DNA from: Streptomyces sp. NBC_00539
Lineage (GTDB): Bacteria > Actinomycetota > Actinomycetes > Streptomycetales > Streptomycetaceae
Length of the DNA: 64,000 nt
Assembly (NCBI RefSeq): GCF_036346105.1
Contig: NZ_CP107811.1
Span: forward strand, 3,283,501 to 3,347,500
Reading direction: 5' to 3'
Made by a program: the position numbers and the translations under genes. Below the pieces are notes generated by a model, which had not been told where the DNA came from, made no database searches, and worked only from the letters and a program-made list of their open reading frames with translations. Shown here one piece after another: positions 38,037-64,000 of this stretch (positions are counted from its first letter, which is position 1; the number at the start of each line of letters is the position of its first letter).

Positions 38037-38041
38037 GAGGT

Positions 38042-38662: not shown

Positions 38663-38807
38663 GTGAGGTCCTCGGGGTGCATTGGATTCGGTCAGGCTGA
38701 TGCTAGGCGCATCCCCCGGCCACGGCTAACCGGCGGTTCCCCAGTGTCCTCCATCGGGCACAGTGGTGAGCACGGACCCCCGCCCGCTCGGGCGCGGCCC
38801 AGTACCC

Positions 38808-38826
38808 TATACCCACGAGGGGTATA
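38808..38826 (+). promoter_or_regulatory. CsoR operator
   Basis: TATACCC-ACGAG-GGGTATA: perfect 7-bp arms with a G/C tract, the form of Streptomyces CsoR sites. 56 bases upstream of csoR; two further CACCGGTATCC direct repeats follow at about 38830-38852. Confidence 0.85.
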
Positions 38827-38881
38827 CATCACCGGTATCCGTCACCGGTATCCATCCCTCGTCCGGACCACGGGAGGACGT

Positions 38882-39217: not shown

Positions 39218-39236
39218 GCACCCTCCACGGGCCCCA

Positions 39237-39305
39237 GCGGCCGGCCGCCTCCCGGCCGGCCCTCTCCCGGCCGGTCGTCTCCCGGCCGGCCCTCTCCCGG
39301 CCGGC
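39237..39305. repeat. CCCGGCCGG tandem repeat
   Basis: Five palindromic CCGGCCGG cores in ~15-bp units (TCCCGGCCGGCCCTC/GTCGTC) between csoR and a convergent small gene. Could act as a terminator cluster. Confidence 0.7.
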
Positions 39306-39311
39306 AAGGGC

Positions 39312-39464
39312 TCAGAGCCCGATGCCCATCAGCACTTCGTCGATCCGGTCCTGGCTCAGCCGGTCCTCGCCCGCCGCCGAGGCCGCGATGATCAGTTCAC
39401 CGCACAGCTCGATCTCGGCAAGCGCCACGTGGTCCTGCACCGTCGTACCGCACACGGGAGTCAC
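39312..39464 (-). CDS. 50-residue conserved-looking small protein
   Basis: From GTG 39464, chosen because AGAGAGG is 9 bases upstream: begins V-T-P-V-C-G-T-T-V, with DHVALAEIELCGELIIAASA and ends DRIDEVLMGIGL. Helical, two Cys, no transmembrane segment. Small proteins of this type occur near other Streptomyces genes; function unknown. Confidence 0.65.
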   Translation of the reverse strand: MTPVCGTTVQDHVALAEIELCGELIIAASAAGEDRLSQDRIDEVLMGIGL

Positions 39465-39605
39465 GCGTGTCACCTCTCTCTGCCGCTTGCTTGCCGCCCG
39501 GCTTCCCAGCGTAGGGAGCGCCCCTCGTGGCGCGCATGACACGGATGGACCATTTCCGGATACCGGGCCATGGCCCGATCGCGCCGCCTCCGCCCCACGG
39601 TCCGA

Positions 39606-40439
39606 CTATCCGGCGATCTTCCCGGCGTAAATGTCCCCGCTTGGCGGCAATGTGACGGTCACCGGAGTCCCGAAACCGTAGAGCAGCGTGGTCGACGACA
39701 CATCGATCACGCCATTGTTGACGTAGCTGAAGCGGTGCCGGACCTTGCGCAGCCGCCCCTCCATGTCCAGGTACACGTCGAACGGGACGGTGTCCTTGCT
39801 GAACCCTTTCGCCGCGGCCTCCAGTGCTCCCCTGACCCCGGGTGACGCGCTCCGCGCGGCCCGCCCGATGTCGGTGGTGCCCTGGTAGTGCCGCACCTTG
39901 GTGCCCGCCAGGTCGGTCTCGCCGACATACGTGACCTGCTGCGCGCCCCGCAGCAGCTCGGCGGCGGCCAACGGGTCGGTGGCGCCCCCGGTGACCAGGT
40001 TCCCGTCGGCGAGGGTCGTCGTATCGACGCGGACCCACTTGTCGTCGGGGACGCCCGCGCCGCGGTTCTTCATGTAGAGCGCGCCGGGGACGAGGAGTTC
40101 GGTGATGGGCCGGTGCTCCGCCTTGCCGGTCACATCGGCCGGGAGCATCACCAGCAGCTGGCCCATCCGGTTCTTGAAGTCGACGCCCCCCTCGCCGCGG
40201 ATGGTGACCCGGGTTCCGCCGGTCGCCATCTCCATCGCCGTACGGGCCTGCGCGCTGCCGGCGCCGGTGAGCGCGTCGGCAGCGCCGCGGACCACCGCGG
40301 CCGGGTCCTGCGGGGGGCGGTCGTCGCCGCTCGCCGGGCCGCCGCAGCCGCTCATCGCCGCCACGGCCAGCGCGACGCCGACGGCTAGCACCGCCTCACC
40401 CGCACGCCCTCGTCGCCGCCTGTGCTGGTGCACCACCAT
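39606..40439 (-). CDS. LppX/LprAFG-like lipoprotein
   Basis: 277 residues. Lipoprotein signal peptide (AVLAVGVALAVAAMSGC, lipobox MSGC). The mature part has the alternating beta strands of the LppX_LprAFG half-barrel: AQARTAMEMATGG, YMKNRGAGVPDDKWVRVD, VPFDVYLDMEGRLRKVRHRF. Mycobacterial homologues carry lipids across the envelope. ATG 40439 with GGGGGTTGG upstream. Confidence 0.85.
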   Translation of the reverse strand: MVVHQHRRRRGRAGEAVLAVGVALAVAAMSGCGGPASGDDRPPQDPAAVVRGAADALTGAGSAQARTAMEMATGGTRVTIRGEGGVDFKNRMGQLLVMLPADVTGKAEHRPITELLVPGALYMKNRGAGVPDDKWVRVDTTTLADGNLVTGGATDPLAAAELLRGAQQVTYVGETDLAGTKVRHYQGTTDIGRAARSASPGVRGALEAAAKGFSKDTVPFDVYLDMEGRLRKVRHRFSYVNNGVIDVSSTTLLYGFGTPVTVTLPPSGDIYAGKIAG

Positions 40440-40569
40440 CGCCTGCCAACCCCCAACGCGTGCCCGCTGTTTGCCCGAGGCCCCACCCGTTCCGTTTAAC
40501 GAGGTCCGCGGTTTCCCGTCACGGGCGGCGGCGGTTCCGGGGGCGGGCCGGTCCGAGTACCGTGGTGGC

Positions 40570-40758
40570 GTGGACCCGCACACCAAAGCGATCCTGAGCA
40601 CTCCGCTTGCCCGCGACAGGGGCGAGCCCGCCCACACCACGAGCACCGCCGAACGCGGCGCGTTCTGCCTGGCCGTATGCAGCTGTGGCTGGACCGGCCC
40701 GGCCCGCCGCTCCAGAGACCTGGCCCGCCGCGACGCCGGCCGCCACCCGGCGGGCTGA
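40570..40758 (+). CDS. 62-residue protein with CSCGW motif
   Basis: From GTG 40570, with TACCGT 6 bases upstream as a -10 box for a leaderless mRNA. Begins VDPHTKAILSTPLARDRGEP, contains FCLAVCSCGWTGPAR, possibly a small zinc site. No known family; divergent from the lipoprotein gene. Confidence 0.6.
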   Translation: MDPHTKAILSTPLARDRGEPAHTTSTAERGAFCLAVCSCGWTGPARRSRDLARRDAGRHPAG

Positions 40759-40856
40759 GCACCCCCCTCTCCCCGGCCGGCCGCCCGGCTGCGGCGCGTC
40801 CCCCGTTCGGACGGCCCCGAGTGGCCGGGCCGCGCGGCACCGGTTGCCCTTGACTC

Positions 40857-41072
40857 ATGCCAGGACCTCGACGGGGACCCCGTTTCGCTGCGGCGTTCGC
40901 CTGGGCCGTGTCGCTCGTCGCCCTGCCCCCGTCCCCGGCCTGGGCCCGCCCGGTCGGCTCCGCGGACGGACCGGCCGACGTAGCCCTGGCCATCGCCGTC
41001 ACCACGGCAGCCGCCATCGCCACGGGCCTTTGGCTCCGCTCCCGCTACCGCCGCGACGAAAAGGACGACTGA
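40857..41072 (+). CDS. Small secreted or membrane protein
   Basis: 71 residues: signal-like N-terminus (FAAAFAWAVSLVALPPSPAWA), then a transmembrane helix (VALAIAVTTAAAIATGLWL) and a charged tail RSRYRRDEKDD. No family recognised. TTGACT upstream may be part of its promoter. Confidence 0.6.
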   Translation: MPGPRRGPRFAAAFAWAVSLVALPPSPAWARPVGSADGPADVALAIAVTTAAAIATGLWLRSRYRRDEKDD

Positions 41073-41189
41073 CCCGGCCCGGCCGCGCGATCCGGCAGCC
41101 CCCTGCCCCCGGCCCTGGTCGGGGCTGCCGGGCCCGGCATCAGCCGGCTCGGTCCCCGGCCCCCAACGGCCCCGGGCCCGCCCTAGCCC

Positions 41190-41870
41190 CTACGCGGCGA
41201 GGTCCTTCTCCCCCGCCTCCACCTCGACGGCCACCGTCCGCGCCACGACCCCCCGCCCCCGCCCGCGCAGAAGCGGGCCCAGCACCGCCATCGCCACCGG
41301 CGCGGGCACCAGCACCACCGCCGTCCCCAGCGCCAGCCCCCCCAGCACGTCCGTCGGGTAGTGCACGCCCATGTACACCCGGCAGAGCCCCTCCACCACC
41401 GCCAGCCCGATACCCACCAGCCCGAGCCGCCGGTTCGCCATGAAGATCCCGACCCCGAGCGCCATCGCCACCGCCGTGTGGTCGCTGACGAACGAGAACC
41501 CGGCCCCGCCGAACCCGTGGACCGCGCCGCCCACCACCTCCAGCCCCTCGTGCTGGAGGAACGGCCGCGGCCGCCCCACGAACCCCCGCAGCGGGACGTT
41601 CACCAGGAGGGCGATCCCCGCCGCCAGCGGCGCCCACACCAGCGCGGCGAACGACTCGGCCGCGCTCGTCTCGTCAGGCCGCTGCCACCGCTCCCGCCGG
41701 ACCCCGCGGGCACACCACAGGACCAGCAGGACCATCGCCAGCGGGATCCCGTAGTCGCCGACGAGGCCCACCGCGCGGTCGACCCGGTCCGGCGCGTGCC
41801 GGGCCAGGCCGTTGATCTCGTACAGCAGGCTTACATCCACGTTCGGCCCACCGGTCGTGAGTCCAGCCAT
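41190..41870 (-). CDS. PAP2-family membrane phosphatase
   Basis: 226 residues, five or six transmembrane helices. PAP2 motifs: PLRGFVGRPRPF (motif 1), FVSDHTAVAM (motif 2, usually PSGH, here SDH), CRVYMGVHYPTDVLGG (motif 3, usually SR). The His residues are kept, the flanking Ser positions changed. Probably dephosphorylates lipid phosphates or undecaprenyl pyrophosphate. ATG 41870. Confidence 0.85.
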   Translation of the reverse strand: MAGLTTGGPNVDVSLLYEINGLARHAPDRVDRAVGLVGDYGIPLAMVLLVLWCARGVRRERWQRPDETSAAESFAALVWAPLAAGIALLVNVPLRGFVGRPRPFLQHEGLEVVGGAVHGFGGAGFSFVSDHTAVAMALGVGIFMANRRLGLVGIGLAVVEGLCRVYMGVHYPTDVLGGLALGTAVVLVPAPVAMAVLGPLLRGRGRGVVARTVAVEVEAGEKDLAA

Positions 41871-42067
41871 GGTGATGCGGTCCCTTGCCCTTGCCTAGGT
41901 CCGTGCGGACGCACCCGGCGCACGCCCTGTCAACCTCCGCCGATCAGCTCCTGTGCCCATGGAACGCCCGTCGTGGCACGTACGTTCCACTCTCCACGGG
42001 ATGATCACTCCAACGTTATCCAAGAGTGACTGATCGTCGCAGCTCAGGGCCCATGCTTAACGGACCG

Positions 42068-43093
42068 TCACGACCCGGCGCGAGCACCCGCCGTACGCTC
42101 CGGAAGCGCCTCCGCGCCGTCCTTCGTGACGCGGGTCGCGCCGAAGTAGTCAGGCGTGTCGATCTTGTCGAAACGGATCACCGCACCCGTGAACGGGGCG
42201 TTGATCATGTAGCCGCCGCCGACGTAGATCCCCACGTGCCGGATGTCCCGAGAGTTCGTCAGATCATCGGAGAAGAAGACGAGGTCACCTGGGAGGAGCT
42301 CCGCACGCGACGGGTGCGGCCCGGCGTTGTACTGGTCGTTCGCGACCCGCGGCAGCTCGACCCCCACCGACTCGTACGCCGCCTTGGTCAGCCCCGAGCA
42401 GTCGAACCGCCCGTCCTGGTCGGGCGTTCCGTTTCCGCCCCACAGATACGGGGTCCCCAGCTGCTTCTGCGCGAAGTAGAGCGCCCCGGACGCCTGTTGC
42501 GACGGCGAGACCCGGCCCAGCGGCCGCTCGAAGCTCTTGGCCAAAGTGGTAATCGTCTTTACGTACCCCTGCGTTTCCGCATACGGAGGCACCCCGCCGT
42601 ACTTGATGACCGCGTACGAGCCCGCGTTGTACGCCGCGAGCATGTTCCCCGTCGGGTCGCCAGCCACCCCCGCCACGTCCTTGGCCAGCTCGCAGTCGTA
42701 CGAAGCCGCCGACGGGATCGCGTCGTTGGGGTCCCAGATGTCGCGGTCGCCGTCACCGTCGCCGTCCACCCCGTGCCCGGCCCAGGTCCCCGGGATGAAC
42801 TGGGCGATCCCCCGCGCATCCGCCGGGCTGACGGCATTGGGGTTCCAGCCGCTCTCCGAGTACAGCTGCGCCGCCAGCAACGCCGGGCTGATCGCCGGGC
42901 ACAGGGTGCCCCATTTCTGCACCAACGGCTGGTACTTGCCGGGTACGGCGCCCTTCGCGAGCCCCAAGGCCCTGCCGCCCGCCTCCGCGCCCACCAGCCC
43001 CGCGGCCGCCGAGTACGTCCCCACGACGAGCAGCACCAGGAAGCTCAGGGCCACTCCGATTCCGATCCCGCCGACCATCCAGAATCTGCGCAC
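42068..43093 (-). CDS. Bifunctional lytic transglycosylase / NlpC-P60 endopeptidase
   Basis: 341 residues. N-terminal signal anchor (~6-30). SLT domain ~55-185: catalytic Glu80 in AQLYSESGWNPNAVSP, GIAQFIPGTW, and AAYNAG at 153-158. NlpC/P60 domain ~205-330: catalytic Cys232 in FDCSGL and His286 in RHVGIYVGGG. GTG start with GGGGGAGGG upstream. This domain pair is the VirB1-like wall-opening component of Gram-positive type IV systems (as in TcpG/VirB1-like proteins), and it sits near the cmd-like operon. Confidence 0.92.
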   Translation of the reverse strand: MRRFWMVGGIGIGVALSFLVLLVVGTYSAAAGLVGAEAGGRALGLAKGAVPGKYQPLVQKWGTLCPAISPALLAAQLYSESGWNPNAVSPADARGIAQFIPGTWAGHGVDGDGDGDRDIWDPNDAIPSAASYDCELAKDVAGVAGDPTGNMLAAYNAGSYAVIKYGGVPPYAETQGYVKTITTLAKSFERPLGRVSPSQQASGALYFAQKQLGTPYLWGGNGTPDQDGRFDCSGLTKAAYESVGVELPRVANDQYNAGPHPSRAELLPGDLVFFSDDLTNSRDIRHVGIYVGGGYMINAPFTGAVIRFDKIDTPDYFGATRVTKDGAEALPERTAGARAGS

Positions 43094-43344
43094 CCGTCAA
43101 CCCTCCCCCACCCCGCCCGTTTTCGGCGGTTTATTCCCATCTCCCGCGCCGACAACCCGACTAACCCACCCGTAAGCCGGAACATCCGACATCCGACGCC
43201 CAGTCTCCTGGGTCGCCGGGGCGCGCAAAAGCCTTCCGGCCTTCCCGGCCACGCGCTGGCCGAAATCACACCTCGGCCACGACGGACACCCGGCACCGGT
43301 GACCGGCGCCCCGCGGCCGCCCTACGCCGGCACCCCTACCTCGC

Positions 43345-44133
43345 CTACCTCGGCGCGACGAACAGGCTCTGCGCGCTGCGCCCGATGGGCCCCTTCTCGT
43401 CGTGCAGCCGCGCGTCGGCGAGCCCGATCCCGGCCGCGTCCACGCTCGTACGGGCCTCCACGCACACCCACTCCCCCACCGGATGGCGGTGCAAGTGGAC
43501 GGTGAGGTCTCCGTTGACGAAGACGTAGCTGCCGAAGTCCAACACCGCGCTGATCCCGTTGCCCGAGTCGGCGGCGACCAACACCCGGTCCAGCGGGCGG
43601 GTCTCCTCCCCCACGATCAGCGGCACCCTCATCCGCATCCAGCAGGTCCCCGGCCCCGGCTCCAGGAACGCCCCGGCGGCGAAGCGGGTCTCCACGGCCG
43701 TGTGGTAGCCCCTCTCCCACGGCAGCTCGAAGGGGGTCTGCGCCACTTCGCCGGGCGGGGGCAGCTGCGGCCCCGGCGCCACCGCCGGCACCGTCTCCCG
43801 TGCGACCCGGATCCGCAGGGCCCGCGCGAGCATCACCGGCGCGCCCCCGGCCGGGGCGAGGACGGCCTCCACCAGCTCGGTACCCCGGCCCGCGCGCACC
43901 ACGCTGGTGGTGACCTCCAGCTCGCCGATCGGCACCGGCCGCAGGATCTCGTAGGTGATCCGCGCGATCCGCATGTCCTCCCGGGCGCCTTCCCGCTCCT
44001 CGACGGCCCGCCCCAGCAGTGCCGCGGGCGGCCCGGCGTGCTGGGAGCGCTCGTCCCACGGCCCGCGCGTGAAGGCGGTGGCCAGGAAGCGCCCGGTGTC
44101 GATCCGCTCGAAGAACCCCTCAGCAGCACCCAT
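43345..44133 (-). CDS. Acyl-CoA thioesterase-like double hot-dog protein
   Basis: 262 residues. Two hot-dog halves in TesB-like arrangement: [30 protein letters not shown], then [20 protein letters not shown] and [20 protein letters not shown] (C-terminal hot-dog with Asp). ATG 44133. Substrate unknown. Divergent from the pentapeptide-repeat gene. Confidence 0.85.
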
Positions 44134-44233
44134 GCCCCGCACGCTACCCACTGGTAACCACCGGCACCACCCCTTCCCCCCGACAGCCGAGGTCCACCGA
44201 CGGCCGAGGTCCACGACGAGGGACAATGGAGCG

Positions 44234-45049
44234 GTGTCGACCACCCCCGCCCCCGCCCTGCGCGCCGACTGCGCCAACTGCTTCGCGCTCTGCTGCGTCG
44301 CCCTCCCCTTCGCCAAGTCCACCGACTTCGCCGTGGACAAAGCCGCCGGAACGCCCTGCAAGAACCTCCGGCAGGACTTCCGCTGCGGCATCCACACCGG
44401 GCTGCGCGACAAGGGCTTCCAGGGCTGCACCGTCTTCGACTGCTTCGGCGCGGGCCAGCAGGTCTCCCAGGTCACCTTCGGCGGCCGCGACTGGCGCACC
44501 GACCCCGGCACCGCCCGCCAGATGTTCGAGGTCTTCCCCGTCATGCGGCAGCTGCACGAGCTGCTGTACTACCTCACCGAGGCCCTCGCCCTCCCCGCGG
44601 CGGCCCCCCTCCACGAGGACCTGCGCGCGGCGCTCACCACGACCACCGAAGCCACCCGCGCCGACGCGGACACCCTGGCCCCCTTCGACGTCGGCGCCCT
44701 GCGCCAGGACATCAACACCCTCCTCCTGCGGACGAGCGAACTGGTCCGGGCCACCGCCCCCGGCCGCAAGAAGAAGAACCACCGCGGCGCCGACCTCATG
44801 GGCGCCCGCCTCCGCGGCGCGGACCTGCGCGGAGCCAACCTGCGCGGCGCCTACCTGATCGCCGCCGACCTCTCCGGCGCCGACCTGCGCAGCGCCGACC
44901 TGATCGGCGCGGACTTCCGCGACGCCGACCTGCGCGGCGCCGACCTCCGGGACGCCCTCTTCCTCACCCAGGCCCAGCTGAACGCCGCACACGGCTCCCC
45001 CGCGACCCGCATCCCCGCCTCCCTGACCCGCCCCTCCCACTGGGCCTGA
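44234..45049 (+). CDS. Cys-cluster plus pentapeptide-repeat protein
   Basis: 271 residues from GTG 44234, with GACAAT 8 bases upstream (leaderless). N-terminal YkgJ-like metal-binding part: [45 protein letters not shown] (nine or more Cys). C-terminal pentapeptide repeats A(D/N)LRG (~180-245), a right-handed beta-helix. Fusion of a Zn/Fe-S cluster with pentapeptide repeats is uncommon but known in Streptomyces. Function unknown. Confidence 0.85.
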
Positions 45050-45342
45050 CCCGCCCCTCGCGCCGGACCTGACCCGCGCCCCCGCCCGCCCCGGGGCGAC
45101 CGGCCGCCCGCGCCGCGACGGCAATCATTGCCCGGCGTCACCCACCGTGATACACAGAGTGACCATACGTTCTTCCGTATACACACCGCCTCCGCCCAGG
45201 TCAGGGCAACGAGGCGGGGGCCGGCCCGGGAGATCGGGTAAAGAGAGCCGCCAAGTCGACGACTGGGCAGGTTTCATCAGCGAAGATAGTGCGTAACCCC
45301 TGCCGTCGGGCACGGGCTACCGGAACTACCCATACTGGGGCG

Positions 45343-45660
45343 GTGAGTTACATGATCCTGGCAGCCGAAAAGGGCGACATCACCACCATCATCGGCGGAA
45401 TCGCCCCGAACTGGGGGCCGTTCGGCAGTCTCGGCAACGAAGCGAAGGTCATGGTCGAGGTGGTCATGGCCGTCGCCATCCTCCTCTGCCTCGGCATCGC
45501 CATCTGGGGCGCCGCCAAACAGCGCATCGGCGCGACCGCCCTGCGCGACACGTTCAGCGCGGAACAGGGCAAGGGCCTGATCGTGGCCGGACTCACGGGC
45601 GTCTTCATCATCGGCTCCCTGGGCACCCTCTTCACGATCGTCTACGGAATGGCCGTCTAG
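45343..45660 (+). CDS. Two-TM pilin-like protein of the cmd-type operon
   Basis: 105 residues from GTG 45343 (or ATG 45352). Short N-terminus, hydrophobic helix ~35-58 (VMVEVVMAVAILLCLGIAI), polar loop AKQRIGATALRDTFSAEQGK, second helix ~78-103. Size and topology of VirB2/TrbC-type subunits, though the sequence is not clearly homologous. First gene of the operon to 52545. In S. coelicolor the equivalent is a small membrane protein of the SCO4126-4131 (cmd) cluster. Confidence 0.8.
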   Translation: MSYMILAAEKGDITTIIGGIAPNWGPFGSLGNEAKVMVEVVMAVAILLCLGIAIWGAAKQRIGATALRDTFSAEQGKGLIVAGLTGVFIIGSLGTLFTIVYGMAV

Positions 45661-45762
45661 CCGTGCCGCCCGCCGGCCGTCGTACCTGATGGCGAATCAA
45701 CACACCGCGGCCACGCGGCAACGAGCGCTACCGTCGTACGACGCGGAGGGGGCGGACACGCA

Positions 45763-46593
45763 ATGAGCAACGACGACCAGTACGGTGGCGGCGGCCACGG
45801 CGAGGTCGGCGGCACGGGCCAGACCCGTACCCGCCTCCCCGACGCCCCCACCGACGCCTACGGTGCTCCCCGCCGCACCCCCCGCGCCTCCCGCGGCCTG
45901 ATCACGGTGGTCGGCGTGGTGGTCCTCCTCGTCGCCGCCATCGCCTTCGCGAACCGGTCGGGCGACACCACCACGCCCACCACCTCGGACAAACCCCCGT
46001 CCGCCACCCCCACCTCCCCGACCGGCACCCGCCCCGTGGACACCAAGACCAACGGCATCCCCCGCGGCTTCGCCCACACCGAACAAGGCGCCCAGTCCGC
46101 GGCCGCCAACTACGCGGTCGCCCTCGGCTCGGACGGCATGCTCAAGCGGGACCTCCGCCACGCGATCATGGACACCCTCTACACCCCGGAAGCGGCGGCG
46201 GCGCGCAAGGGCGCCCAGGACTCCGCGTACTCGCCCGCCTTCCTCACCAGCCTCGGCCTCGACGCCGACGGCAACCCCCCGCAGGGCAGCACCTTCGTCA
46301 CCCGCGCCGTCCCCATCGGCACCCGCGTCGAGAGCTACGGCCCCACCAGTGCGAAGGTCGCCGTCTGGTACACGGGCCTGCTCGGCATGTCGGGCCCCAA
46401 GTCCACCGACCCCGTGCGCACCACCTGGAAGACCTGGACGTTCGAACTCTCCTGGGCCGGCGAGGACTGGAAGATCGGCGCCGACACCCAGCAGGACGGG
46501 CCCGCCCCCGTCCCCGGTGACGTCCCCGCCTCCACGTCCGACGACATCAGCAAGGCCGTCAAGGAGTTCGGAGGGTTCACCTATGCCCGGTAG
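45763..46593 (+). CDS. VirB8/TcpC-like membrane protein
   Basis: 276 residues. Disordered N-terminus, one transmembrane helix (~46-67: GLITVVGVVVLLVAAIAFA), Thr/Pro linker, then an extracytoplasmic domain (~105-275) with FAHTEQGAQSAAANYAVALG and VWYTGLLGM: an NTF2-like fold as in VirB8 or TcpC. ATG 45763. Overlaps the next gene by 11 bases. Confidence 0.75.
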   Translation: MSNDDQYGGGGHGEVGGTGQTRTRLPDAPTDAYGAPRRTPRASRGLITVVGVVVLLVAAIAFANRSGDTTTPTTSDKPPSATPTSPTGTRPVDTKTNGIPRGFAHTEQGAQSAAANYAVALGSDGMLKRDLRHAIMDTLYTPEAAAARKGAQDSAYSPAFLTSLGLDADGNPPQGSTFVTRAVPIGTRVESYGPTSAKVAVWYTGLLGMSGPKSTDPVRTTWKTWTFELSWAGEDWKIGADTQQDGPAPVPGDVPASTSDDISKAVKEFGGFTYAR

Positions 46594-47905
46594 CCGCCCC
46601 TTCCGCATCGCCGCAGCACTGGTCACCGTCCAGAGCACACTGGTCCTGCTGTCCGCCCGGGCCTTCGCCGCACCCACCCCGCCGCCCACGACCAGCCCCA
46701 CGCCCAGCACCTCCGCCACCCAGAGCGGCAAGTGCGAAGGCGTCATCGGCCCGCTCAAGGAATCCTGCGAGCGCAGCGTCGGCGGCAGCGCCACCGGCAG
46801 CCCCAACACCGGCCTCACCACCAACACCCCCGACGCCATCAACCCCCTCGCCTCCCTCGCCAAGGGCTGCGCCGACGCCGCTTCCTGGATCGTCGGCAAA
46901 CTCGGCTCCGCCATCAAGGGAACGGCCACCGTCGACTTCACCAACCCCGCCTTCCTCCAGCAGTACGCGGTCGTCTTCGCGGCCAGCACCATCCTCACCC
47001 TCGTGCTGTGGCTCCTCGCCGTCGCCAAGCGCGCCATCCGGGGCGTCCCCCTCGCCACCGCCATGTCCGAAGCCATCGGCTTCCTCTGGCTCACCGTCCT
47101 CGCCTCCGCCTTCACCCCCCTCGTCCTGTACACCGTCGTCTCCGCCACCGACGCCGTCACCGGGGTCATCGCCACCGCCACCGGCAGCCAGGGCGACGTC
47201 TTCTTCGGCTCCTTCGCCGAAGCCCTCAAGAAGGGCGACGACATCGGCGGCGGCCCGATCATGCTGATCGTCGTCGCCCTCGTCACCGTCCTCGCAGCCG
47301 GCGTCCTGTGGCTCGAGCTCGTCATCCGCGCCGCGCTCCTCTACGTCGGCGCCCTCCTCGGCACCGTCGTCTACGCCGGCCTCGTCGACCGCAACATGTG
47401 GGGCCACGTCCGCCGCTGGGCCGGCATCATGATCGCCGTCATCCTCGTGAAGCCGGTCATCGTCATCGTCCTCGGCCTCGCCGGGGCCCTCGCCGGCGAC
47501 AAGGGGCCCGACGCCTTCTCCGCCGTCGTCTCCGGCCTCGCGATCATCCTCCTCGCGATCTTCGCCTCCGCCATGATCTACCGCTTCGTCCCCGGCTTCG
47601 GCGACGAGATCGCCTCCGCCCGCTCCAACCGCAGCAAGGCCACCGACGGCGCCCAGGCAGCGGCCGTCATCAGCTCCCCGGCCTCCCTCGTCTCCCAGGG
47701 CATCAAGACACACAGCAGCCGAGGCGCCCACCGCGCCGGCGGCGAAGGCGGCGGCGCCCCCCGCCCCGCCAACCCCATCTCCGGAGGCGTGGCCGCCCAC
47801 AGCAGCCGCCCCACCGGCGGCGGATCCGGCGGAACTGTCCCCTCCGCCGCACCCGCGCCCCGCACTGGATCGAGTACGAGGAACACAGGAGGTGACGGGC
47901 GTTGA
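46583..47905 (+). CDS. VirB6/TrbL-like multi-spanning membrane protein
   Basis: 440 residues. Signal peptide (ALVTVQSTLVLLSARAFAA), Thr/Pro linker, CEGVIGPLKESC Cys pair, then six or more transmembrane helices (~125-355) and a Gly/Ser-rich cytoplasmic tail. GGAGGG SD before ATG 46583, within the end of the previous gene. Layout as in channel proteins of conjugation systems. Confidence 0.8.
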   Translation: MPGSRPFRIAAALVTVQSTLVLLSARAFAAPTPPPTTSPTPSTSATQSGKCEGVIGPLKESCERSVGGSATGSPNTGLTTNTPDAINPLASLAKGCADAASWIVGKLGSAIKGTATVDFTNPAFLQQYAVVFAASTILTLVLWLLAVAKRAIRGVPLATAMSEAIGFLWLTVLASAFTPLVLYTVVSATDAVTGVIATATGSQGDVFFGSFAEALKKGDDIGGGPIMLIVVALVTVLAAGVLWLELVIRAALLYVGALLGTVVYAGLVDRNMWGHVRRWAGIMIAVILVKPVIVIVLGLAGALAGDKGPDAFSAVVSGLAIILLAIFASAMIYRFVPGFGDEIASARSNRSKATDGAQAAAVISSPASLVSQGIKTHSSRGAHRAGGEGGGAPRPANPISGGVAAHSSRPTGGGSGGTVPSAAPAPRTGSSTRNTGGDGR

Positions 47906-49464
47906 CGACCCAGTCCCACCAGCTCCACCCGGTCGCGCCCCGCCGCACGTATCTCATCGGCCGCGCCCGGCCGAACGCGATCGTCGGCAAGAACCGCGAA
48001 ACCGGCGAGATCGCCCTGATCATCGTCGGCGCGTTCTTCGGCATGATGAGCGGACTGCTCGTCCCCGACCTCGCCCTGCGCATCGTGAGCCTCGCCGGCT
48101 TCCCCCTGCTCGCGCTCGCCGCCGTGTACGTCCCCTACAAGGGCCGCACCTTCTACAAGTGGTTCGAGATCAACCGCAGCTACAAGCGCACCCTGCGCCG
48201 CGGAGCCACCTACCGCTCCGGCGCCGTCGAAGCCGGCGTCCGCGCCTCGGACGGCCGCGAAGTCGAAATCGGCCCGCCCCCCGGCATCGGCCGCATCAAC
48301 TGGCTCGCCGCGCCCTTCGGCCCCGACGAGATCGCCGTCCTCCTCCACGCCGACCGCCGCACCGTCACCGCCGCCATCGAAATCGAAGGACCCGGCGTCG
48401 GCCTGCGCGACAGCGAGGACCAAGAAGCCCTCGTCGACCGCTTCGGCACCCTCCTCAAACACGTCGCCAACGGCGACGGCTTCGTCACCCGCCTCCAAAT
48501 GCTGGCGCGCACCCTCCCCGCCGACCCCGACGCCCACGCCAAGGACGTCGCCCAGCGCGGCGACACGAACGCCCCCGTCTGGCTGCGCGACTCCTACGAC
48601 CAGCTCCAGTCGATGGTCTCCACCTCCAGCGAGCAGCACCGCGCCTACCTCGTCGCCTGCATGCACTACACGCGCGAACTCGCCGCCGAAGCCCACACCA
48701 TCGCCCGCGCCTCCACCCCCCACAAGGGCCGCAAACTCGACCGCGACGCCGGACTCGCCATCGTCATGGCCCGCGAACTCACCGACATCTGCGCCCGCCT
48801 CGCCGAAGCCGACATCCGGGTGCGCCAGCCGCTGGGCCAGGGCCGCCTCTCCTCCCTCGTGCACTCCATGTACGACCCGGACCACCCCATCGACCACATC
48901 CAGGCCATGACCAAGCGCAACGCCTGGCCCGCCGAACTGGACGCGGTCGAACCCACCTACCTCCAGGCCAAGACCCGCGAGTCCTCCACCCGCGCCCCCT
49001 GGTGCCACGCCACCGCCTGGGTGAAGGAATGGCCGATGACCCCCGTCGGCGTCAACTTCCTCGCCCCCCTCCTCGTCCACACCCCCGACGTCATCCGCAC
49101 CGTCGCCGTCACCATGGACCTGGAGCCCACCGAAGTGGCCATCGAGCGCATGCTCACCGAGAAGACCAACGACGAGGCCGACGCCAGCCGCGCCGCCAAG
49201 ATGAACCGCACCGTCGACCCCCGCGACATCGCCGCCCACGGCCGGCTCGACCAGAGGGGTGAAGATCTGGCCAGCGGTGCGGCAGGAGTCAACCTCGTCG
49301 GGTACATCACGGTGTCCTCGCGTTCCCCCGAGGCCCTCGCCCGCGACAAGCGCACCATCCGCGCCTCCGCCGGCAAGTCCTACCTGAAACTCGAATGGTG
49401 CGACCGCGAGCACCACCGCGCATTCGTCAACACCCTGCCGTTCGCCACCGGCATCCGACGCTAG
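47902..49464 (+). CDS. SCO6880-family protein: PrgI-like domain plus VirB4 N-terminal domain
   Basis: 520 residues from the rare start TTG 47902, with GGAGGTGACGGGCG directly upstream and a TTGA overlap with the previous stop. Two transmembrane helices near ~35-75 (IALIIVGAFFGMMSGLLV, LAGFPLLALAAVYV) in a PrgI-like arrangement, then a large cytoplasmic domain without Walker motifs, matching the VirB4 N-terminal half (FGPDEIAVLLHADRRTVTAA, YLVACMHYTRELAAEA). With the next gene it reconstitutes a split VirB4. Confidence 0.85.
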   Translation: MTTQSHQLHPVAPRRTYLIGRARPNAIVGKNRETGEIALIIVGAFFGMMSGLLVPDLALRIVSLAGFPLLALAAVYVPYKGRTFYKWFEINRSYKRTLRRGATYRSGAVEAGVRASDGREVEIGPPPGIGRINWLAAPFGPDEIAVLLHADRRTVTAAIEIEGPGVGLRDSEDQEALVDRFGTLLKHVANGDGFVTRLQMLARTLPADPDAHAKDVAQRGDTNAPVWLRDSYDQLQSMVSTSSEQHRAYLVACMHYTRELAAEAHTIARASTPHKGRKLDRDAGLAIVMARELTDICARLAEADIRVRQPLGQGRLSSLVHSMYDPDHPIDHIQAMTKRNAWPAELDAVEPTYLQAKTRESSTRAPWCHATAWVKEWPMTPVGVNFLAPLLVHTPDVIRTVAVTMDLEPTEVAIERMLTEKTNDEADASRAAKMNRTVDPRDIAAHGRLDQRGEDLASGAAGVNLVGYITVSSRSPEALARDKRTIRASAGKSYLKLEWCDREHHRAFVNTLPFATGIRR

Positions 49465-49483
49465 CCGGAAGGAAGTGCCGCCC

Positions 49484-50899
49484 ATGCGCGATCCCATGTC
49501 CGCCCTGACGGACGCCTTCACCAGCTTCCTCTTCGGCAAGGTCGAAACCACCCGCCTGCCCGTACGCACCTCGACCGGCCAGGCCCAAGCCGTCTACCTG
49601 CCCACCGCCGCCCCCGGTCTCGGCGACTCCGGCGTCATCATCGGCCGCGAGGTCTACAGCGGCAAGGGCTACATCTACGACCCCTTCCAGCTCTACGGGC
49701 AACAGCTCCCCGCCCCCCACTGGCTGGTCCTCGGCGAATCCGGCAACGGCAAGTCCGCCCTGGAGAAGACCTACGTCCTGCGCCAGCTCCGCTTCCGCGA
49801 CCGACAGGTCGTCGTCCTCGACGCCCAGGGCGAAGACGGCGTCGGCGAATGGAACCTCATCGCCCAGCAGCTGGGGATAACCCCCATCCGCCTGGACCCC
49901 ATCGCCGCCAACGACGACGGGATCCGCCTCAACCCCCTCGACCCGGCGATCACCACCACCGGGCAGCTCGCGCTGCTCCGCACCATCATCGAAGTCGCCA
50001 TGGGACACGGCCTGGACGAACGCTCCGGCTTCGCCCTCAAGGTCGCGCACGCCTACGTCGTCGAAACGATCATCGACCGCCAGCCCGTCCTCACCGACAT
50101 CGTCGAACAGCTGCGCCACCCCAAACCCGAATCCGCCGAAGCGATGAACGTCGACATAGACGATGTCCGCGCCTGGGGCCTCGACGTCGCCCTCGTCCTG
50201 GACCGCCTCGTCGACGGCGACCTGCGCGGCATGTTCGACGGCCCCACCACCGTCGGCATCGACCTCGACGCGCCGCTCATCGTCTTCGACCTGTCCCACA
50301 TCGACCGCAACTCCATCGCGATGCCGATCCTCATGGCGATCGTCGGCGTCTGGCTGGAACACACCTGGATCCGCCCCGACCGCAAGAAGCGCATCTTCCT
50401 GGTCGAAGAGGCCTGGCACATCATCAACAGCCCCTTCGTCGCACAGCTGTTCCAGCGCCTCCTCAAGTTCGGCCGCCGCCTCGGCCTGTCCTTCGTCGCC
50501 GTCGTCCACCACCTCTCCGACGTCGTGGACGGAGCAGCCGCCCGGGAGGCCGCCGCCATCCTCAAAATGGCCTCCACCCGCACCATCTACGCCCAGAAGG
50601 CAGACGAAGCCCGCGCCACGGGCCGCGTCCTCGGCCTGCCCCGCTGGGCCGTCGAAATCATCCCGACCCTCACCCCGGGCATCGCCGTCTGGGACGTCAA
50701 CGGCAACGTCCAGGTCGTCAAACACCTGATCACCGAAGCCGAACGCCCCCTCGTCTACACCGACCGCGCCATGACGGAATCCTCAGCCCCCCAACTCCCC
50801 GACGACCTGCTGGCCGCCGAACTCGAAGCGGAACAGCGCGCCCTCCACATGGAACGCCACCGCAACGGCGGCCCCGGCTCGGCGACCACGGTGGCGTAG
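49484..50899 (+). CDS. VirB4-like ATPase (ATPase half)
   Basis: 471 residues from ATG 49484 (GGAAGGAA 9 bases upstream). Walker A GESGNGKSALEK, Walker B RIFLVEEAWHIIN, then RLLKFGRRLGLSFVAVVHHL and VLGLPRWAVEIIPTLTPGIA. This is the motor half of VirB4/TraE; its N-terminal half is the preceding protein. In S. coelicolor deletion of the ATP/GTP-binding gene of this cluster disturbs sporulation and chromosome segregation (recalled, not checked). Confidence 0.9.
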   Translation: MRDPMSALTDAFTSFLFGKVETTRLPVRTSTGQAQAVYLPTAAPGLGDSGVIIGREVYSGKGYIYDPFQLYGQQLPAPHWLVLGESGNGKSALEKTYVLRQLRFRDRQVVVLDAQGEDGVGEWNLIAQQLGITPIRLDPIAANDDGIRLNPLDPAITTTGQLALLRTIIEVAMGHGLDERSGFALKVAHAYVVETIIDRQPVLTDIVEQLRHPKPESAEAMNVDIDDVRAWGLDVALVLDRLVDGDLRGMFDGPTTVGIDLDAPLIVFDLSHIDRNSIAMPILMAIVGVWLEHTWIRPDRKKRIFLVEEAWHIINSPFVAQLFQRLLKFGRRLGLSFVAVVHHLSDVVDGAAAREAAAILKMASTRTIYAQKADEARATGRVLGLPRWAVEIIPTLTPGIAVWDVNGNVQVVKHLITEAERPLVYTDRAMTESSAPQLPDDLLAAELEAEQRALHMERHRNGGPGSATTVA

Positions 50900-50901
50900 C
50901 C

Positions 50902-52545
50902 ATGCCCGACCCACGCCGTACGGACCCCTCCGCCCGCCCCGGCGGCATCCCCGACGGAGTCCTGGTCGGCCTCCTGGCCTTCCTCCTCGGCCTGGCCGTC
51001 CTGATCTGGTCGACCACCGGCCTGGCCGCCCTCTTCGCGAAGGGCGCCTGGCCGGACACGGTCACCTTCACCCGCACCCCGACGGCCGTCCGCGCCCTGA
51101 TAACGCACCCCCACGACATCCCCGGGGCCTGGCCCGACACCGACCCCGCCTCCCTGTCCGGCTGGGGCCTCTTCTGGGGCCTCTTCATCAGCCAGCTCCT
51201 GATCCTCCTGGTCCTCGGCATCTTCACCCTCGGCGTCATCACCCGCACGAAAGCCCGATCACAAAATCCGGCCGCCCCCTCAGCCCCGCCAACCCCAGCC
51301 CCGGCACACCACCCAGCCCCGCCGCACCACCCAGCCCCGCCGGCGTTTGAGGCGCGGGGGCCTGGGGGCAGCGCCCCCAGCACTCAACCCGCGCCCGGCA
51401 CCGGCACGGCCCCAAATCCAGCCCCGCCGGCGTTTGAGGCGCAGGGCCCGGGGGGCAGCGCCCCCAGCACACAGCCCGCACCCGGCACCGGCACGGCCCC
51501 AAATCCAGCCCCGCCGGCGTTTGAGGCGCAGGGCCCCGGGGGCAGCGCCCCCAGCACACAGCCCGCGCCCGGCACCGGCACCGGCACCGGCACCGGCACC
51601 GGCACCCGCCTGGCCTACGCCCCACCGGCCACCCGCGACCACGCGGCCAGGACCTTCCTCGACTCCGCAGAAGGCGCGGCCCTCGTCGTCACCTCCTCCC
51701 CCACCCTCTGGTCGGAGACCAGGGACGCCCGCGCCAAACTCGGCCCCGTCCTCCTCTACGACCCCTCACACCTGTGCGACACCCCCGCACCGGCCCGCAT
51801 GCACTGGAACCCCACCACCGGCTGCGCGGACCGCGACACCGCCGCCGCCAGAGCGGTCGCCCTGCTGGCCCCCGTCCGCCCCACGGCCCGCATGGACGCC
51901 GCCCTCGCCGACACCGCCGAAACACTCCTCCGCAGCTGGCTCCACGCCGCAGCCCTCGACGACCGCCCCTTCAAGCAGCTCCACCGCTGGGCCCAAGGCA
52001 CGCACGCGCAGGACCCGGTCCGCATCCTGCGCACCCACCCCGGGGCCACCCCCGGCGCGGCCGGCGCACTCGAAAGCGCCCTCACCGCACACCCCCAACG
52101 CCGCGAGCAGGCCCAGCACCTGACGGCCCGTGCCCTGTCCTGCCTCAGCTCGGTCCACATCCGCGACGCGTGCAACCCGAATCGAACGGATTCGCTGACC
52201 CTGGCATCGTTCGTCCCCGAGGGGGGAACCCTCTACGTGGTGGGTGAACCCCTGGAAGACCCCCGTACCCACCCGGGTGCGATGCCCTTGCTGACCGCAC
52301 TCGCCGCGAGCGTGGTCGAGCACGGCCGTCGCATGGCTGCAAGGTCATCCCACGGTCGGCTCGACCCACCACTCACCCTCGTCCTGGACGACGTCGCCGC
52401 GGTCGCCCCCATCCCGCAGCTCCCCGAGCTCCTCCAGGACGACACGCTCCCCCTCCTCGCCCTTTGCCGGAGCAGGGAACAGGCCCGCGCCCGCTGGCCG
52501 GAGGCCGTCGAGTTCACCCCCGCCGGCCCCCACCACCACCGCTGA
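50902..52545 (+). CDS. VirD4/TraG-like coupling protein with degenerate P-loop
   Basis: 547 residues. Two transmembrane helices (~19-45 and ~90-112), then a Pro/Ala-rich linker (~118-233) that contains three in-frame 29-residue repeats. From ~258 the sequence follows VirD4: VVTSSPTLWSETRDARAKLG, VLLYDPSH, and a Walker-B-like LTLVLDDVAAVAPIPQLPELL near ~492-510 (D-D instead of D-E). No GxxxxGK[ST] occurs anywhere, so ATPase activity is doubtful. Last gene of the operon. Confidence 0.8.
   Translation: MPDPRRTDPSARPGGIPDGVLVGLLAFLLGLAVLIWSTTGLAALFAKGAWPDTVTFTRTPTAVRALITHPHDIPGAWPDTDPASLSGWGLFWGLFISQLLILLVLGIFTLGVITRTKARSQNPAAPSAPPTPAPAHHPAPPHHPAPPAFEARGPGGSAPSTQPAPGTGTAPNPAPPAFEAQGPGGSAPSTQPAPGTGTAPNPAPPAFEAQGPGGSAPSTQPAPGTGTGTGTGTGTRLAYAPPATRDHAARTFLDSAEGAALVVTSSPTLWSETRDARAKLGPVLLYDPSHLCDTPAPARMHWNPTTGCADRDTAAARAVALLAPVRPTARMDAALADTAETLLRSWLHAAALDDRPFKQLHRWAQGTHAQDPVRILRTHPGATPGAAGALESALTAHPQRREQAQHLTARALSCLSSVHIRDACNPNRTDSLTLASFVPEGGTLYVVGEPLEDPRTHPGAMPLLTALAASVVEHGRRMAARSSHGRLDPPLTLVLDDVAAVAPIPQLPELLQDDTLPLLALCRSREQARARWPEAVEFTPAGPHHHR
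51331..51606 (+). repeat. Three 87-bp in-frame tandem repeats in the VirD4-like gene
   Basis: Units start at 51331, 51418 and 51505 (87 bp, 29 codons), each with CAGCCCCGCCGGCGTTTGAG and a GGGGGCAGCGCCCCC hairpin, followed by GGCACC 6-bp repeats (51572-51606). The first 30 bases are identical to intergenic 19719-19748. Confidence 0.9.
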
Positions 52546-52558
52546 CCCCGGCCGTCTC

Positions 52559-53116
52559 TTACGGCCTCCGGAGCACGTACTCCCGCTCCCTCGCCCCGCC
52601 CGCATCCCCCGGCATCGGCACGGTCAGGCCACTCTCCCGGAAGCCGAACCGCCGGTAGAACGCCTCGGCCCGCGCGTTCTCCTCGTGCACGAACAGCCGT
52701 ACGCGCTCCAGCGGCGGCTCCTCCAGCGACCACGCCCATTCCAGCGCGGCCCGGAACAACGCCTCGGTCAGCCCGGTGCCCCGCTGCTCGGCCCGCACGA
52801 ACACGCCGACCACGTGTCCCTGCTCCTGCTCGACCGCCTCACCGAAGTAGTCCGGCACGCCGCCGGGCTCGACCAGCAGCGTCACCGAGCCGTTCCACTG
52901 CCCGTCCGCGGCTTCCGCGATGAACTGCCGCGCGCCCCGCCCCTGACTCGCCCGCTCCGTGCGCCCCTGCCAGAACTCGTCCGGCTGCGCCTCCGCCTGC
53001 TCCAGCGTTTCCAAGAAGGCGATCGCCGCCGCCGGATCCCGCAACGCGAGGAGCCTCAGCTCCTTCGCCTGCTTCCACTCGTCGCCCCGTACCGCCCGTA
53101 TCACGTGTTCGTTCAT
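52559..53116 (-). CDS. GNAT-family N-acetyltransferase
   Basis: 185 residues from ATG 53116. GNAT core: VIRAVRGDEWKQAKELRLLA, GHVVGVFVRAEQRGTGLTEA (acetyl-CoA loop, R-G-T-G variant of QxxGxG), VRLFVHEENARAEAFYRRFG. Substrate unknown. An open frame continues upstream into the rRNA terminator region but has no homology. Confidence 0.9.
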   Translation of the reverse strand: MNEHVIRAVRGDEWKQAKELRLLALRDPAAAIAFLETLEQAEAQPDEFWQGRTERASQGRGARQFIAEAADGQWNGSVTLLVEPGGVPDYFGEAVEQEQGHVVGVFVRAEQRGTGLTEALFRAALEWAWSLEEPPLERVRLFVHEENARAEAFYRRFGFRESGLTVPMPGDAGGAREREYVLRRP

Positions 53117-53209
53117 AACAGCGGATCCAACCACGCCCACTTGCCATGCCGCACCCGCAATTCCGTGTGCCGGGCGCCGGTTCACACGAAACGGGTCCGG
53201 AACGCAGAA

Positions 53210-53258: not shown

Positions 53259-53378
53259 TGTTCGGCGGCGTCCTACTCTCCCACAGGGTCCCCCCTGCAG
53301 TACCATCGGCGCTGAAAGGCTTAGCTTCCGGGTTCGGAATGTAACCGGGCGTTTCCCTAACGCTATGACCACCGAAAC
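53259..53378 (-). rRNA. rrf: 5S ribosomal RNA
   Basis: 120 bases. Minus strand begins GTTTCGGTGGTCATAGCGTT and ends GACGCCGCCGAACA, the Streptomyces 5S form. Identical to 62406-62525. Confidence 0.97.
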
Positions 53379-53453
53379 ACTATGAAGTTGACCAACCGGA
53401 TGACAACACGGTCGTTACTTCAGAACTAACACAGTGGACGCGAGCAACTGAGG
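53379..53453 (-). other. 23S-5S spacer with processing-stem arm
   Basis: No tRNA. CACAGTGGACGCGAGCAACT plus GAGG at 53430-53453 is complementary (2 mismatches) to 56571-56594 upstream of 23S, forming the 23S RNase III processing stem. Confidence 0.8.

Positions 53454-58383
<4,930 letters not shown>

Positions 58384-62600: not shown

Positions 62601-64000
<1,400 letters not shown>

Follow-up and report, generated by a model that had tools for sequence, protein, structure and literature searches.

The six-gene cmd operon in the window (the whole stretch of DNA analysed here, 64,000 nucleotides from Streptomyces sp. NBC_00539) very probably encodes a domesticated type IV secretion system (T4SS) whose coupling protein is dead. 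The best explanation overall, which we consider probable, is that of a conjugation machine domesticated for development and driven by VirB4 alone. On balance its cargo or product would be something other than DNA, while a surface assembly built from CmdF is a tentative suggestion that we rate as possible. We regard it as an even call whether cmd is a Gram-positive T4SS without a relaxase or a functional VirD4 that began as a plasmid conjugation machine and became, at the root of the Streptomycetales, a fixed envelope device for forming aerial hyphae and spores, with a second actinomycete family making a similar move independently. The features concerned are as follows.

42068-43093, minus strand: SLT + NlpC/P60 peptidoglycan hydrolase, VirB1-equivalent (Pfam NLPC_P60 2.6e-24, SLT 1e-14)
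45146-45162, plus strand: conserved element CGTGATACACAGAGTGA, candidate BldD site, some 200 nt ahead of cmdF, differing at one position from TNAC(N)5GTNA
45352-45660, plus strand: CmdF, 102 aa, two transmembrane (TM) segments, candidate VirB2-like pilin
45763-46593, plus strand: CmdE, 276 aa, one TM segment and a VirB8/NTF2-like domain
46583-47905, plus strand: CmdD, 440 aa, polytopic membrane protein, VirB6/TrbL lineage
47902-49464, plus strand: CmdC, 520 aa, TTG start, N-terminal half of a split VirB4, SCO6880 family
49475 (GTG) or 49484 to 50899, plus strand: CmdB, VirB4 C-terminal ATPase half
50902-52545, plus strand: CmdA, 547 aa, degenerate VirD4/TraG-type coupling protein, two TM segments
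51301-51581, plus strand: three in-frame tandem copies of a dispersed genomic repeat, 87 nt apart, in the CmdA linker

All six genes are co-directional in the order CmdF-E-D-C-B-A, the start of CmdD overlapping the end of CmdE by 11 nt and that of CmdC the end of CmdD by 4 nt; the gene calls thus bear out the six coupled plus-strand genes of the first-pass annotation, with one start moved (CmdF, from 45343 to 45352). ATG 45352 is preferred over GTG 45343 as the CmdF start because the spacing between both candidates is longer by two bases, out of frame, in two loci (L146 and L184); GTG 45343 was dropped, its frame with 45352 being broken there. For CmdB, the ribosome-binding site makes 49484 a more likely start than 49475. 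GC content of the six genes is 0.65-0.75. The operon is identified from sequence matches as the orthologue of cmdABCDEF, SCO4126-4131 of S. coelicolor, for which orthologues were named in S. lividans, S. avermitilis and S. griseus (PMC2782261), and the counterpart named at first pass was the right one: published cmdB mutagenesis primers match window CmdB at 25/31 and 29/31 bases (next best window sites, 20-21), and gene number, co-direction and the CmdB ATPase are shared as well. Transcription in S. coelicolor would run from SCO4131 to SCO4126, and the VirB4-like ATPase is the next-to-last gene in transcription order, as in cmdABCDEF. The operon and its VirB4 link are already published; CmdB was described as VirB4-like and a T4SS-like channel was raised as a question, while CmdA as a decayed coupling protein and CmdE as VirB8 are not described in the available parts of that publication (PMC2782261). 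CmdA decay and the parallel case described below appear to be new, no earlier report having been found in the literature searched.

CmdC and CmdB are best read from their family matches as two halves of one VirB4. CmdB matches Pfam AAA_10 (1.5e-12), covers positions 370-700 of the 752 of VirB4 model NF045971 and hits the VirB4 structure PDB 4ag5 (1.2e-6), so that the VirB4 ATPase half predicted at first pass is borne out; its Walker A (GESGNGKS) and Walker B (IFLVEEAW) motifs are kept in 80/80 named loci. CmdC matches NF042935 at 6.9e-54, and its homologues align to NF045971 at about 193-363 of 752, below the model cut-off. The same gene had been labelled a PrgI-VirB4 N-terminal protein, a label of which the VirB4 N-terminal half stands through these homologues, while PrgI is sub-threshold (0.006-0.011 in two CmdC homologues, below cut-off) and family models for PrgI/VirB3 gave zero matches in window CmdC. 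Profile searches of PDB returned four weak unrelated hits with window CmdC and none with a CmdC from family f18. The VirB6 and PrgI/VirB4-N assignments rest on family models of homologues.

Among the envelope parts, CmdE is assigned the VirB8 fold by a model and VIA-align rows, in agreement with the VirB8-like protein first proposed; a PDB profile search with CmdE gave 0 hits. CmdD, with five TM segments and an N-terminal segment by hydropathy, is placed in the VirB6/TrbL lineage through its homologue in locus L118 (27% identity, E 2.5e-13), which matches TrbL/VirB6 PF04610 at 4.2e-8, above cut-off; the original VirB6/TrbL-like call is upheld by that route only, as a Pfam scan of window CmdD itself gave zero matches and a PDB profile search one designed protein alone (0.019). 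The two TM segments of the expected pilin-sized protein are present in CmdF, and its VirB2 assignment is weak: T4SS_pilin (PF18895) was matched in the L124 homologue at 0.0064, below cut-off, and homologues in f18 and L126 match DUF6112.

CmdA reads as a decayed coupling protein that has lost Walker A and the C-terminal part. In the alignment, GK[ST] stands in the Walker A columns of 0/77 Streptomycetaceae copies (rows L143 and L182 have a loose GK[ST] pattern, but outside these columns), remnants such as GPARSGKA (L109) and GARAETGKR (Streptantibioticus, L137) persist, and the C-terminus is truncated compared with intact coupling proteins such as those of L118 and L124. This alignment took in 62/80 named loci, leaving out L098, whose gene call is fragmentary, L207, which has 86 residues at a contig end, four Catenulispora loci without the gene and 13 further named loci where the CmdA frame lacked a stop or a nearby start within the available piece. 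The TraG-D_C match is strong in plasmid rows L214 and L216 (7e-24 and 1e-24), falls to 3e-7 in CmdA of L109 and 1.6e-6 to 1e-3 in L138, L137 and L142, and is absent from CmdA of L193 and of the window. The cmdA gene is missing in 4/4 Catenulispora loci, as is the coupling-protein gene in 4/4 f48 loci. At the cmd locus, then, a VirB4 is present and a functional-looking VirD4 absent, as far as the Walker motifs of CmdB and CmdA alone can tell. Of the VirD4-like protein in the first-pass annotation, the coupling-protein descent stands and the protein is a remnant; for this reason DNA handling becomes the weaker of the two options, secretion or DNA handling, that had been offered for the machine.

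The cmd locus is core and chromosomally resident, present in 149/150 genomes of the genus and 148/148 of the order, as the earlier idea of a resident machine implied. Among named loci with enough flank, CmdB was kept in 75/75, CmdD in 72/72, CmdE in 66/66, CmdF in 62/63 and CmdA in 55/59. Ratios of dN/dS (NG86, six relatives with frames taken from stop to stop and aligned to the window; absolute values are rough owing to codon bias) were 0.034-0.054 for CmdF, the lowest among the six genes, 0.057-0.105 for CmdB and 0.38-0.56 for CmdA, with strong purifying selection on CmdB, CmdC and CmdF. As the CmdA ratio lies below 1 and none of the 55 Streptomycetaceae loci with sufficient flank lacks the gene, CmdA may keep a structural job.

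The surroundings bear on whether the locus is instead a defective integrative conjugative element (ICE), still decaying and of no host function. PF03432 and TrwC (PF08751) relaxases, the two families searched, are absent from the whole 7.5 Mb host genome, which for these families confirms the relaxase-less operon first described; no integrase was found among the scanned genes neighbouring the operon and no direct repeats of at least 24 nt flank it within 38000-53200. T4SS genes that lack a relaxase and a nearby integrase fit such an element, and a survey found one near the chromosome middle in all its strains, possibly the cmd locus (PMC9513070). However, conservation across the order, strong purifying selection on CmdB, CmdC and CmdF, and developmental phenotypes in three species (PMC2782261) contradict a functionless ICE, which we reject as highly improbable. 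As to whether a relaxase is always absent, which the first pass had proposed to survey, TrwC-type matches occur in 9/35 genomes; eight of them share a contig with the cmd locus, no nearer to it than 327 kb, and the remaining one lies on a different contig. Downstream of the operon lies a minus-strand GNAT gene, and an rRNA operon that the first-pass annotation of cmd does not mention (53260-58382, minus strand) follows 0.7 kb past cmd, with a second beginning at 62407; rRNA lies in the 20 kb surrounding the locus in 15/15 Streptomyces stretches, and no tRNA was found in the window. Upstream, CGTGATACACAGAGTGA is a candidate BldD site by comparison with the consensus TNAC(N)5GTNA (PMC4151990), and TACACA[GC]NGT was found in 52/64 named upstream regions. 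A sigma-70 promoter scan gave 0 sites, terminator-like structures numbered 5 against 3.3 in shuffles, and the words looked for did not occur in the WhiA and WhiB regulon papers.

A tree places plasmid and plasmid-like T4SS clusters in the sister clade of cmd, where coupling proteins carry an intact APPREGKT (L124, L214, L215). The Streptomyces plasmid clusters inspected, those of pMDJK44.2 of S. alboflavus, NZ_CP108821 and NZ_CP109145, resemble cmd in an order that ends with CmdC-CmdB and then the coupling protein and in a wall hydrolase gene nearby; on pMDJK44.2, an SLT/C40 hydrolase is followed by the core order as in cmd and then the coupling protein. They differ in a CmdC about 40% identical to the window's and in coupling proteins that keep Walker A. 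In 101 matching plasmid records, no CmdC reached 60% identity. The pMDJK44.2 plasmid is typed MOBF, whereas those of NZ_CP108821 and NZ_CP109145 are typed non-mobilizable; as two of the three are so typed, a conjugative function of these clusters is not certain. SLP2 genes related to cmd are required for plasmid transfer (PMC2782261).

A parallel case appears in family f18, possibly Micromonosporaceae. Seven f18 loci hold a similar T4SS cluster without a coupling protein, with a minus-strand SLT/P60 gene upstream and an altered VirB4 P-loop (G[AS]VGSRKS); CmdC matches were found in 24 f18 genomes of the class sample. The f18 cluster was apparently recruited independently of Cmd, to judge by phylogeny. 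A single clade of both was dropped, as a concatenated CmdB+CmdC tree puts f18 with ICE-like systems; an AU test of {Cmd + f18} gave p 4e-36, a value that is indicative only, since the group was defined once the tree had been inspected and long branches come together there. Left out of the concatenated tree for long branches or redundancy were L122, L123, L216 and some close relatives; L216 is the pMDJK44.2 row, and its placement is unsure in the tree of plasmid relatives. Against independence, a hydrolase tree sets f18 next to Streptomycetales (91/81; only four plasmid- or ICE-type rows).

The SLT-NlpC/P60 gene, from its position and domains apparently the orthologue of tgdA/SCO4132, lies 2.26 kb from CmdF on the minus strand, where a VirB1-like transglycosylase/peptidase had been noted and both Pfam domains support it; between the two lie genes for an acyl-CoA thioesterase (minus) and a pentapeptide-repeat protein (plus). 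Linkage, which the first pass had proposed to survey, is widespread: a minus-strand SLT/P60 gene is linked in 52/59 named loci for which 9 kb or more upstream was available, though not in every locus. We dropped the idea that a minus-strand hydrolase is tied to coupling-protein loss, as L123 (f11) has both such a hydrolase and a coupling protein with an intact APTRAGKT, and two plasmid clusters also have minus-strand hydrolases. The tgdA mutant phenotype resembles that of cmd mutants (PMC6585502); SCO5677, whose mutants had comparable actinorhodin levels in that work, is a candidate partner.

Published phenotypes connect the machine with development. Sporulation needs cmdB-F and not cmdA, CmdB is located in the membrane and developmentally expressed, and sporulation and antibiotic phenotypes are published for S. 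coelicolor, S. lividans and S. avermitilis (PMC2782261). The discoverers suggested that a CmdB like FtsK/SpoIIIE, in a T4SS-like channel, translocates DNA for chromosome segregation at sporulation septa. Mutants do show uneven nucleoids and anucleate spores (8% and 6% vs 0.1%), CmdB gave a PHYRE match to the FtsK motor (PMC2782261), and VirB4 and FtsK belong to one superfamily (PMC12857230). We consider this reading unlikely, since the component by which DNA enters a T4SS has decayed or is missing, no PF03432/TrwC relaxase was found, the gene linked to the operon encodes a wall hydrolase, and mutants also show delayed aerial growth, branching and earlier transcription of antibiotic genes (PMC2782261). 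Exchange of chromosomal DNA between hyphae, as by archaeal Ced/Ted, is in our judgement improbable. Ced/Ted are domesticated T4SSs with VirB4, VirB6 and VirB2 homologues, archaeal relaxase homologues being not apparent (PMC9905601), and CmdB matches the CedB model weakly (4.6e-4, far below cut-off); however, the mutant defects appear in pure culture, cmdA-F deletion left transfer of an SLP2-derived plasmid unchanged (data not shown there; PMC2782261), and TraB is the described route for transfer of plasmid and chromosomal DNA in Streptomyces (PMC12857230).

For the preferred explanation of a domesticated, VirB4-driven machine, the analysis shows the make-up of the system, its descent, the decay of CmdA and its conservation as a core locus, and we infer assembly, export and cargo. 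A resident T4SS of the same stock as the Streptomyces plasmid T4SSs has been inherited across the Streptomycetales and has lost its DNA-specific parts, with no PF03432/TrwC relaxase found and the coupling ATPase CmdA decayed or gone. What is left is an envelope machine composed of the split VirB4 motor (CmdC/CmdB), CmdD, CmdE, the very conserved CmdF and the linked TgdA. Most likely, in young aerial hyphae, TgdA would open the peptidoglycan, and ATP hydrolysis by CmdB would drive the construction and operation of an assembly of CmdF, CmdD and CmdE that spans membrane and wall. This assembly would export, or present on the cell surface, a protein that normal hyphal growth and septation require, in the manner of VirD4-less T4SSs in other bacteria. 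Several points count against this explanation: the anucleate spores could reflect direct DNA handling, VirB4 is akin to DNA motors and Ced/Ted move DNA without a relaxase, CmdA may still have its structural job, two of the plasmid clusters compared are of uncertain conjugative function, the pilin identity of CmdF is weak, and the pigment phenotype is uneven, with overproduction in cmdB, cmdD and cmdE nulls and not in cmdC and cmdF nulls (PMC2782261).

Bordetella Ptl, Brucella VirB and Bartonella Trw are, like cmd, VirB4 machines that work without a VirD4 receptor (PMC12857230), but they are Gram-negative, whereas cmd resides in a Gram-positive actinomycete, still encodes a remnant VirD4 and has a developmental phenotype. 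The Saccharibacteria (Patescibacterial) T4SS is, like cmd, of Gram-positive type and needed by its own cell, but includes VirD4 and a pilin array (PMC12857230). Archaeal Ced/Ted are likewise resident T4SS derivatives without a relaxase (PMC9905601). They exchange DNA, whereas cmd instead has VirB8 and a wall hydrolase. We know of no DNA-exchange phenotype for Cmd. A resident T4SS whose coupling protein is dead, found in practically every Streptomyces genome examined and with developmental mutants already published, would offer a tractable laboratory system for what VirB4 alone can do in a Gram-positive envelope, and the published phenotypes may be recast as those of a single machine, Cmd together with TgdA.

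The operon lies on a 7.5-Mb chromosome of Streptomyces type, and its genes, in the order cmdF-E-D-C-B-A, correspond to SCO4131 to SCO4126 of Streptomyces coelicolor. The ATPase is encoded by the penultimate gene, the place expected of cmdB. The mutagenic primers for cmdB (PMC2782261, methods) match window CmdB at 25 of 31 bases at Walker A and, around the VVKH lysine near the C terminus, at 29 of 31, while the next best sites within the window match at only 20–21 bases. Since it is the K404A primer that covers the Walker A lysine, and the K90A primer the distal one (about residue 416 of window CmdB), these labels were seemingly swapped in the methods of that paper. The features are as follows.

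45146-45162, about 200 nt before cmdF: conserved element resembling a BldD box, one mismatch
45352-52545, plus strand: cmd operon, six genes, several overlapping or almost so
49736-49766 and 50706-50736: cmdB primer sites, from matching of the PMC2782261 primers
53260-58382 and 62407-64000, minus strand: two rRNA operons within 10 kb, of which the first follows cmd after 0.7 kb

Judged from alignments, the coupling protein CmdA looks dead. It shares 28–36% identity with the TraG/VirD4-type coupling proteins of five homologous loci (L118, L119, L124, L129 and L130), and alignment to coupling proteins places a proline-rich linker where the Walker A region should be and leaves the C terminus missing. 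GK[ST] was absent from the Walker A columns in all 77 Streptomycetaceae CmdA (the window, 62 named loci and 14 further loci) of an 84-sequence alignment. Walker A decay is graded across relatives, from an intact motif to gene absence: APPREGKT is present in the plasmid or plasmid-like coupling proteins of L124, L214 and L215; CmdA of L109 (family f47) has GPARSGKA at this place; GARAETGKR or similar occurs in Streptantibioticus, Actinacidiphila and a few Streptomyces-named loci (L138, L141 and L145), with no trace in the remaining Streptomycetaceae CmdA of the alignment; and the gene is absent from 4/4 Catenulispora and 4/4 f48 loci. Matches to the Pfam model TraG-D_C were 7e-24 and 1e-24 for plasmid clusters L214 and L216, 3e-7 for L109, 1.6e-6 for L138, 3e-4 for L137 and 1e-3 for L142, with no match for CmdA of L193 or the window. 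In contrast to CmdA, CmdB kept GESGNGKS and Walker B in all 80 named loci. CmdA decay fits the normal sporulation reported for the cmdA single null (PMC2782261) and a transposon-screen peak reported to span cmdBCDEF (PMC6585502).

The CmdA linker (51301-51581) is partly built of three in-frame tandem repeat copies spaced 87 nt apart. This repeat is a dispersed genomic one with the core AGCCCCGCCGGCGTTTGAGGCGC, present in 76 genomic copies at ≤2 mismatches versus 0 for the reversed control, and with a further window copy at 19720. CmdB of f48 loci L110, L111 and L113, which are without CmdA, has 521–590 residues versus 474 in the window.

The cmd locus is core and apparently not mobile. CmdC was found in 148/148 order genomes, with best matches at 70–100% identity, and in 149/150 genus genomes, the sole exception being a 1010-contig draft (G139) in which a second look was negative too; in a class sample, 85 of 296 genomes had matches, 57 of them outside the genus (one at 72% identity, the others at ~22–36%). 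Among named loci with enough flank, picked as best by query similarity and thus not random, CmdB was found in 75/75, CmdD in 72/72, CmdE in 66/66, CmdF in 62/63, CmdA in 55/59 and the SLT-NlpC/P60 wall hydrolase gene (SLT/P60) in 52/59, on the minus strand wherever found. dN/dS values over six relatives were 0.034–0.054 for CmdF, 0.057–0.105 for CmdB, 0.12–0.16 for CmdC, 0.36–0.65 for CmdD, 0.35–0.69 for CmdE and 0.38–0.56 for CmdA. rRNA lay beside cmd in 38/80 named loci, many stretches being cut off by contig ends, and rRNA sequence occurred within the 20-kb stretch in 15/15 further Streptomyces loci versus 0/5 f47/f48 loci; the rRNA operons are probably why many draft contigs end beside cmd, and the two in the window account for its low GC from 54 kb on. 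BldD-like scores of at least 8 of 9, against an approximate consensus, were reached in 42/65 upstream regions versus 62/1300 two-base shuffles, with matches at several positions; because the upstream sequences are related, the candidate BldD box is only a lead.

A comparable arrangement occurs in seven loci of another family (f18) of the same class, all with CmdE, CmdC and CmdB homologues in cmd order and an upstream minus-strand SLT/P60 gene; a CmdD homologue was found in six in a first comparison and in the seventh (L133) in another, and no CmdA homologue lay in the 20-kb stretch of any of the seven. The VirB4 P-loop is GAVGSRKS or GSVGSRKS in all seven (L114–L117 and L131–L133), the other 26 rows being canonical. 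The CmdB+CmdC tree groups f18 with ICE-like systems and rejects a clade with Cmd, so f18 looks like an independent recruitment, on which the hydrolase tree is ambiguous. The f18 VirB4 is well conserved among the seven loci despite its altered P-loop. In the two loci inspected, an extra gene, 384 aa in one and 652 aa in the other, stands ahead of the small DUF6112 gene.

L114, 5039-6193; L116, 4298-6256: f18 extra gene, no Pfam match, by eye ParA-type-like

The CmdC homologues (SCO6880 family) of L114, L116, L132 and L133 match most of the T7SS EccE model TIGR03923, with values of 6e-12 to 7e-10 that are below its curated cut-off, hinting that T4SS and T7SS subunits may share ancestry; window CmdC had no match to this model, and searching PDB sequences with the L114 homologue gave no hit.

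The cmd operon, its phenotype and the likeness of CmdB to VirB4 are already in print. Reported nulls (PMC2782261) include pale colonies for cmdB to cmdF, not cmdA; late aerial growth, branching and collapsed hyphae for cmdB and the operon, with 8% and 6% anucleate spores; pigment overproduction for cmdB, D, E and the operon, not A, C or F; and earlier onset of actII-orf4 transcription for the operon. The same study reports CmdB in the membrane fraction, a cmdB transcript increasing at aerial growth and unchanged transfer of an SLP2-derived plasmid on deletion of cmdA-F. tgdA (SCO4132), the apparent SLT/P60 orthologue, is reported to match cmdBCDEF in its level of actinorhodin overproduction in the transposon screen (PMC6585502), and SCO4130, CmdE by numbering, is listed among membrane glycoproteins (PMC6593405), which is what a VirB8 domain situated outside the membrane would predict. 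For coupling-protein decay, the full T4SS assignment and the parallel f18 case, we found no paper in the open-licence literature that was searched; a 2025 review (PMC12857230) includes coverage of VirD4-less Gram-negative systems and Streptomyces TraB, and the words cmd, coelicolor and aerial are absent from its text.

None of 101 matching plasmid records had CmdC at ≥60% identity; the ten best, at 39–42%, were eight Streptomyces plasmids and one each from Actinacidiphila and Kitasatospora, and predicted mobility across the 101 was 52 non-mobilizable, 42 mobilizable and 7 conjugative. pMDJK44.2 (L216; S. alboflavus, MOBF) carries, in this order, an SLT/C40 hydrolase, a small gene, two hypothetical genes in the CmdE and CmdD places, CmdC-like and CmdB-like genes, DUF6238 and a coupling protein with GPMGSGKT. 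On NZ_CP108821 and NZ_CP109145, each of which is typed as non-mobilizable, a coupling protein is accompanied by an upstream minus-strand wall hydrolase (weak CHAP/NlpC, and M23). In unrooted, midpoint-drawn trees, L214 and L215 with chromosomal L124 and L125 form the sister clade of Streptomycetales Cmd, and placement of L216 is unsure. Genome-wide search of the host for PF03432 and TrwC relaxases found neither type, the control for each being positive in 1/14 genomes. TrwC-type matches occurred in 9/35 genomes (8 above cut-off), on CmdC's contig at least 327 kb away in eight and on a different contig in the ninth.

SLP2 genes related to cmd are reported as needed for plasmid transfer (PMC2782261), and the conjugative role of cmd-related plasmid genes rests on that report. 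Deleting SCO6878 and SCO6881, S. coelicolor genes likewise related to cmd, is described there as having no effect on sporulation, so the developmental role is not general to clusters of this type. The simplest account of cmd origin is that a plasmid-type T4SS module, hydrolase included, would have been captured before Streptomycetales diversified and would then have lost its DNA-specific parts. We infer that Cmd is a putative envelope machine powered by VirB4, its role in handling conjugative DNA having been lost.
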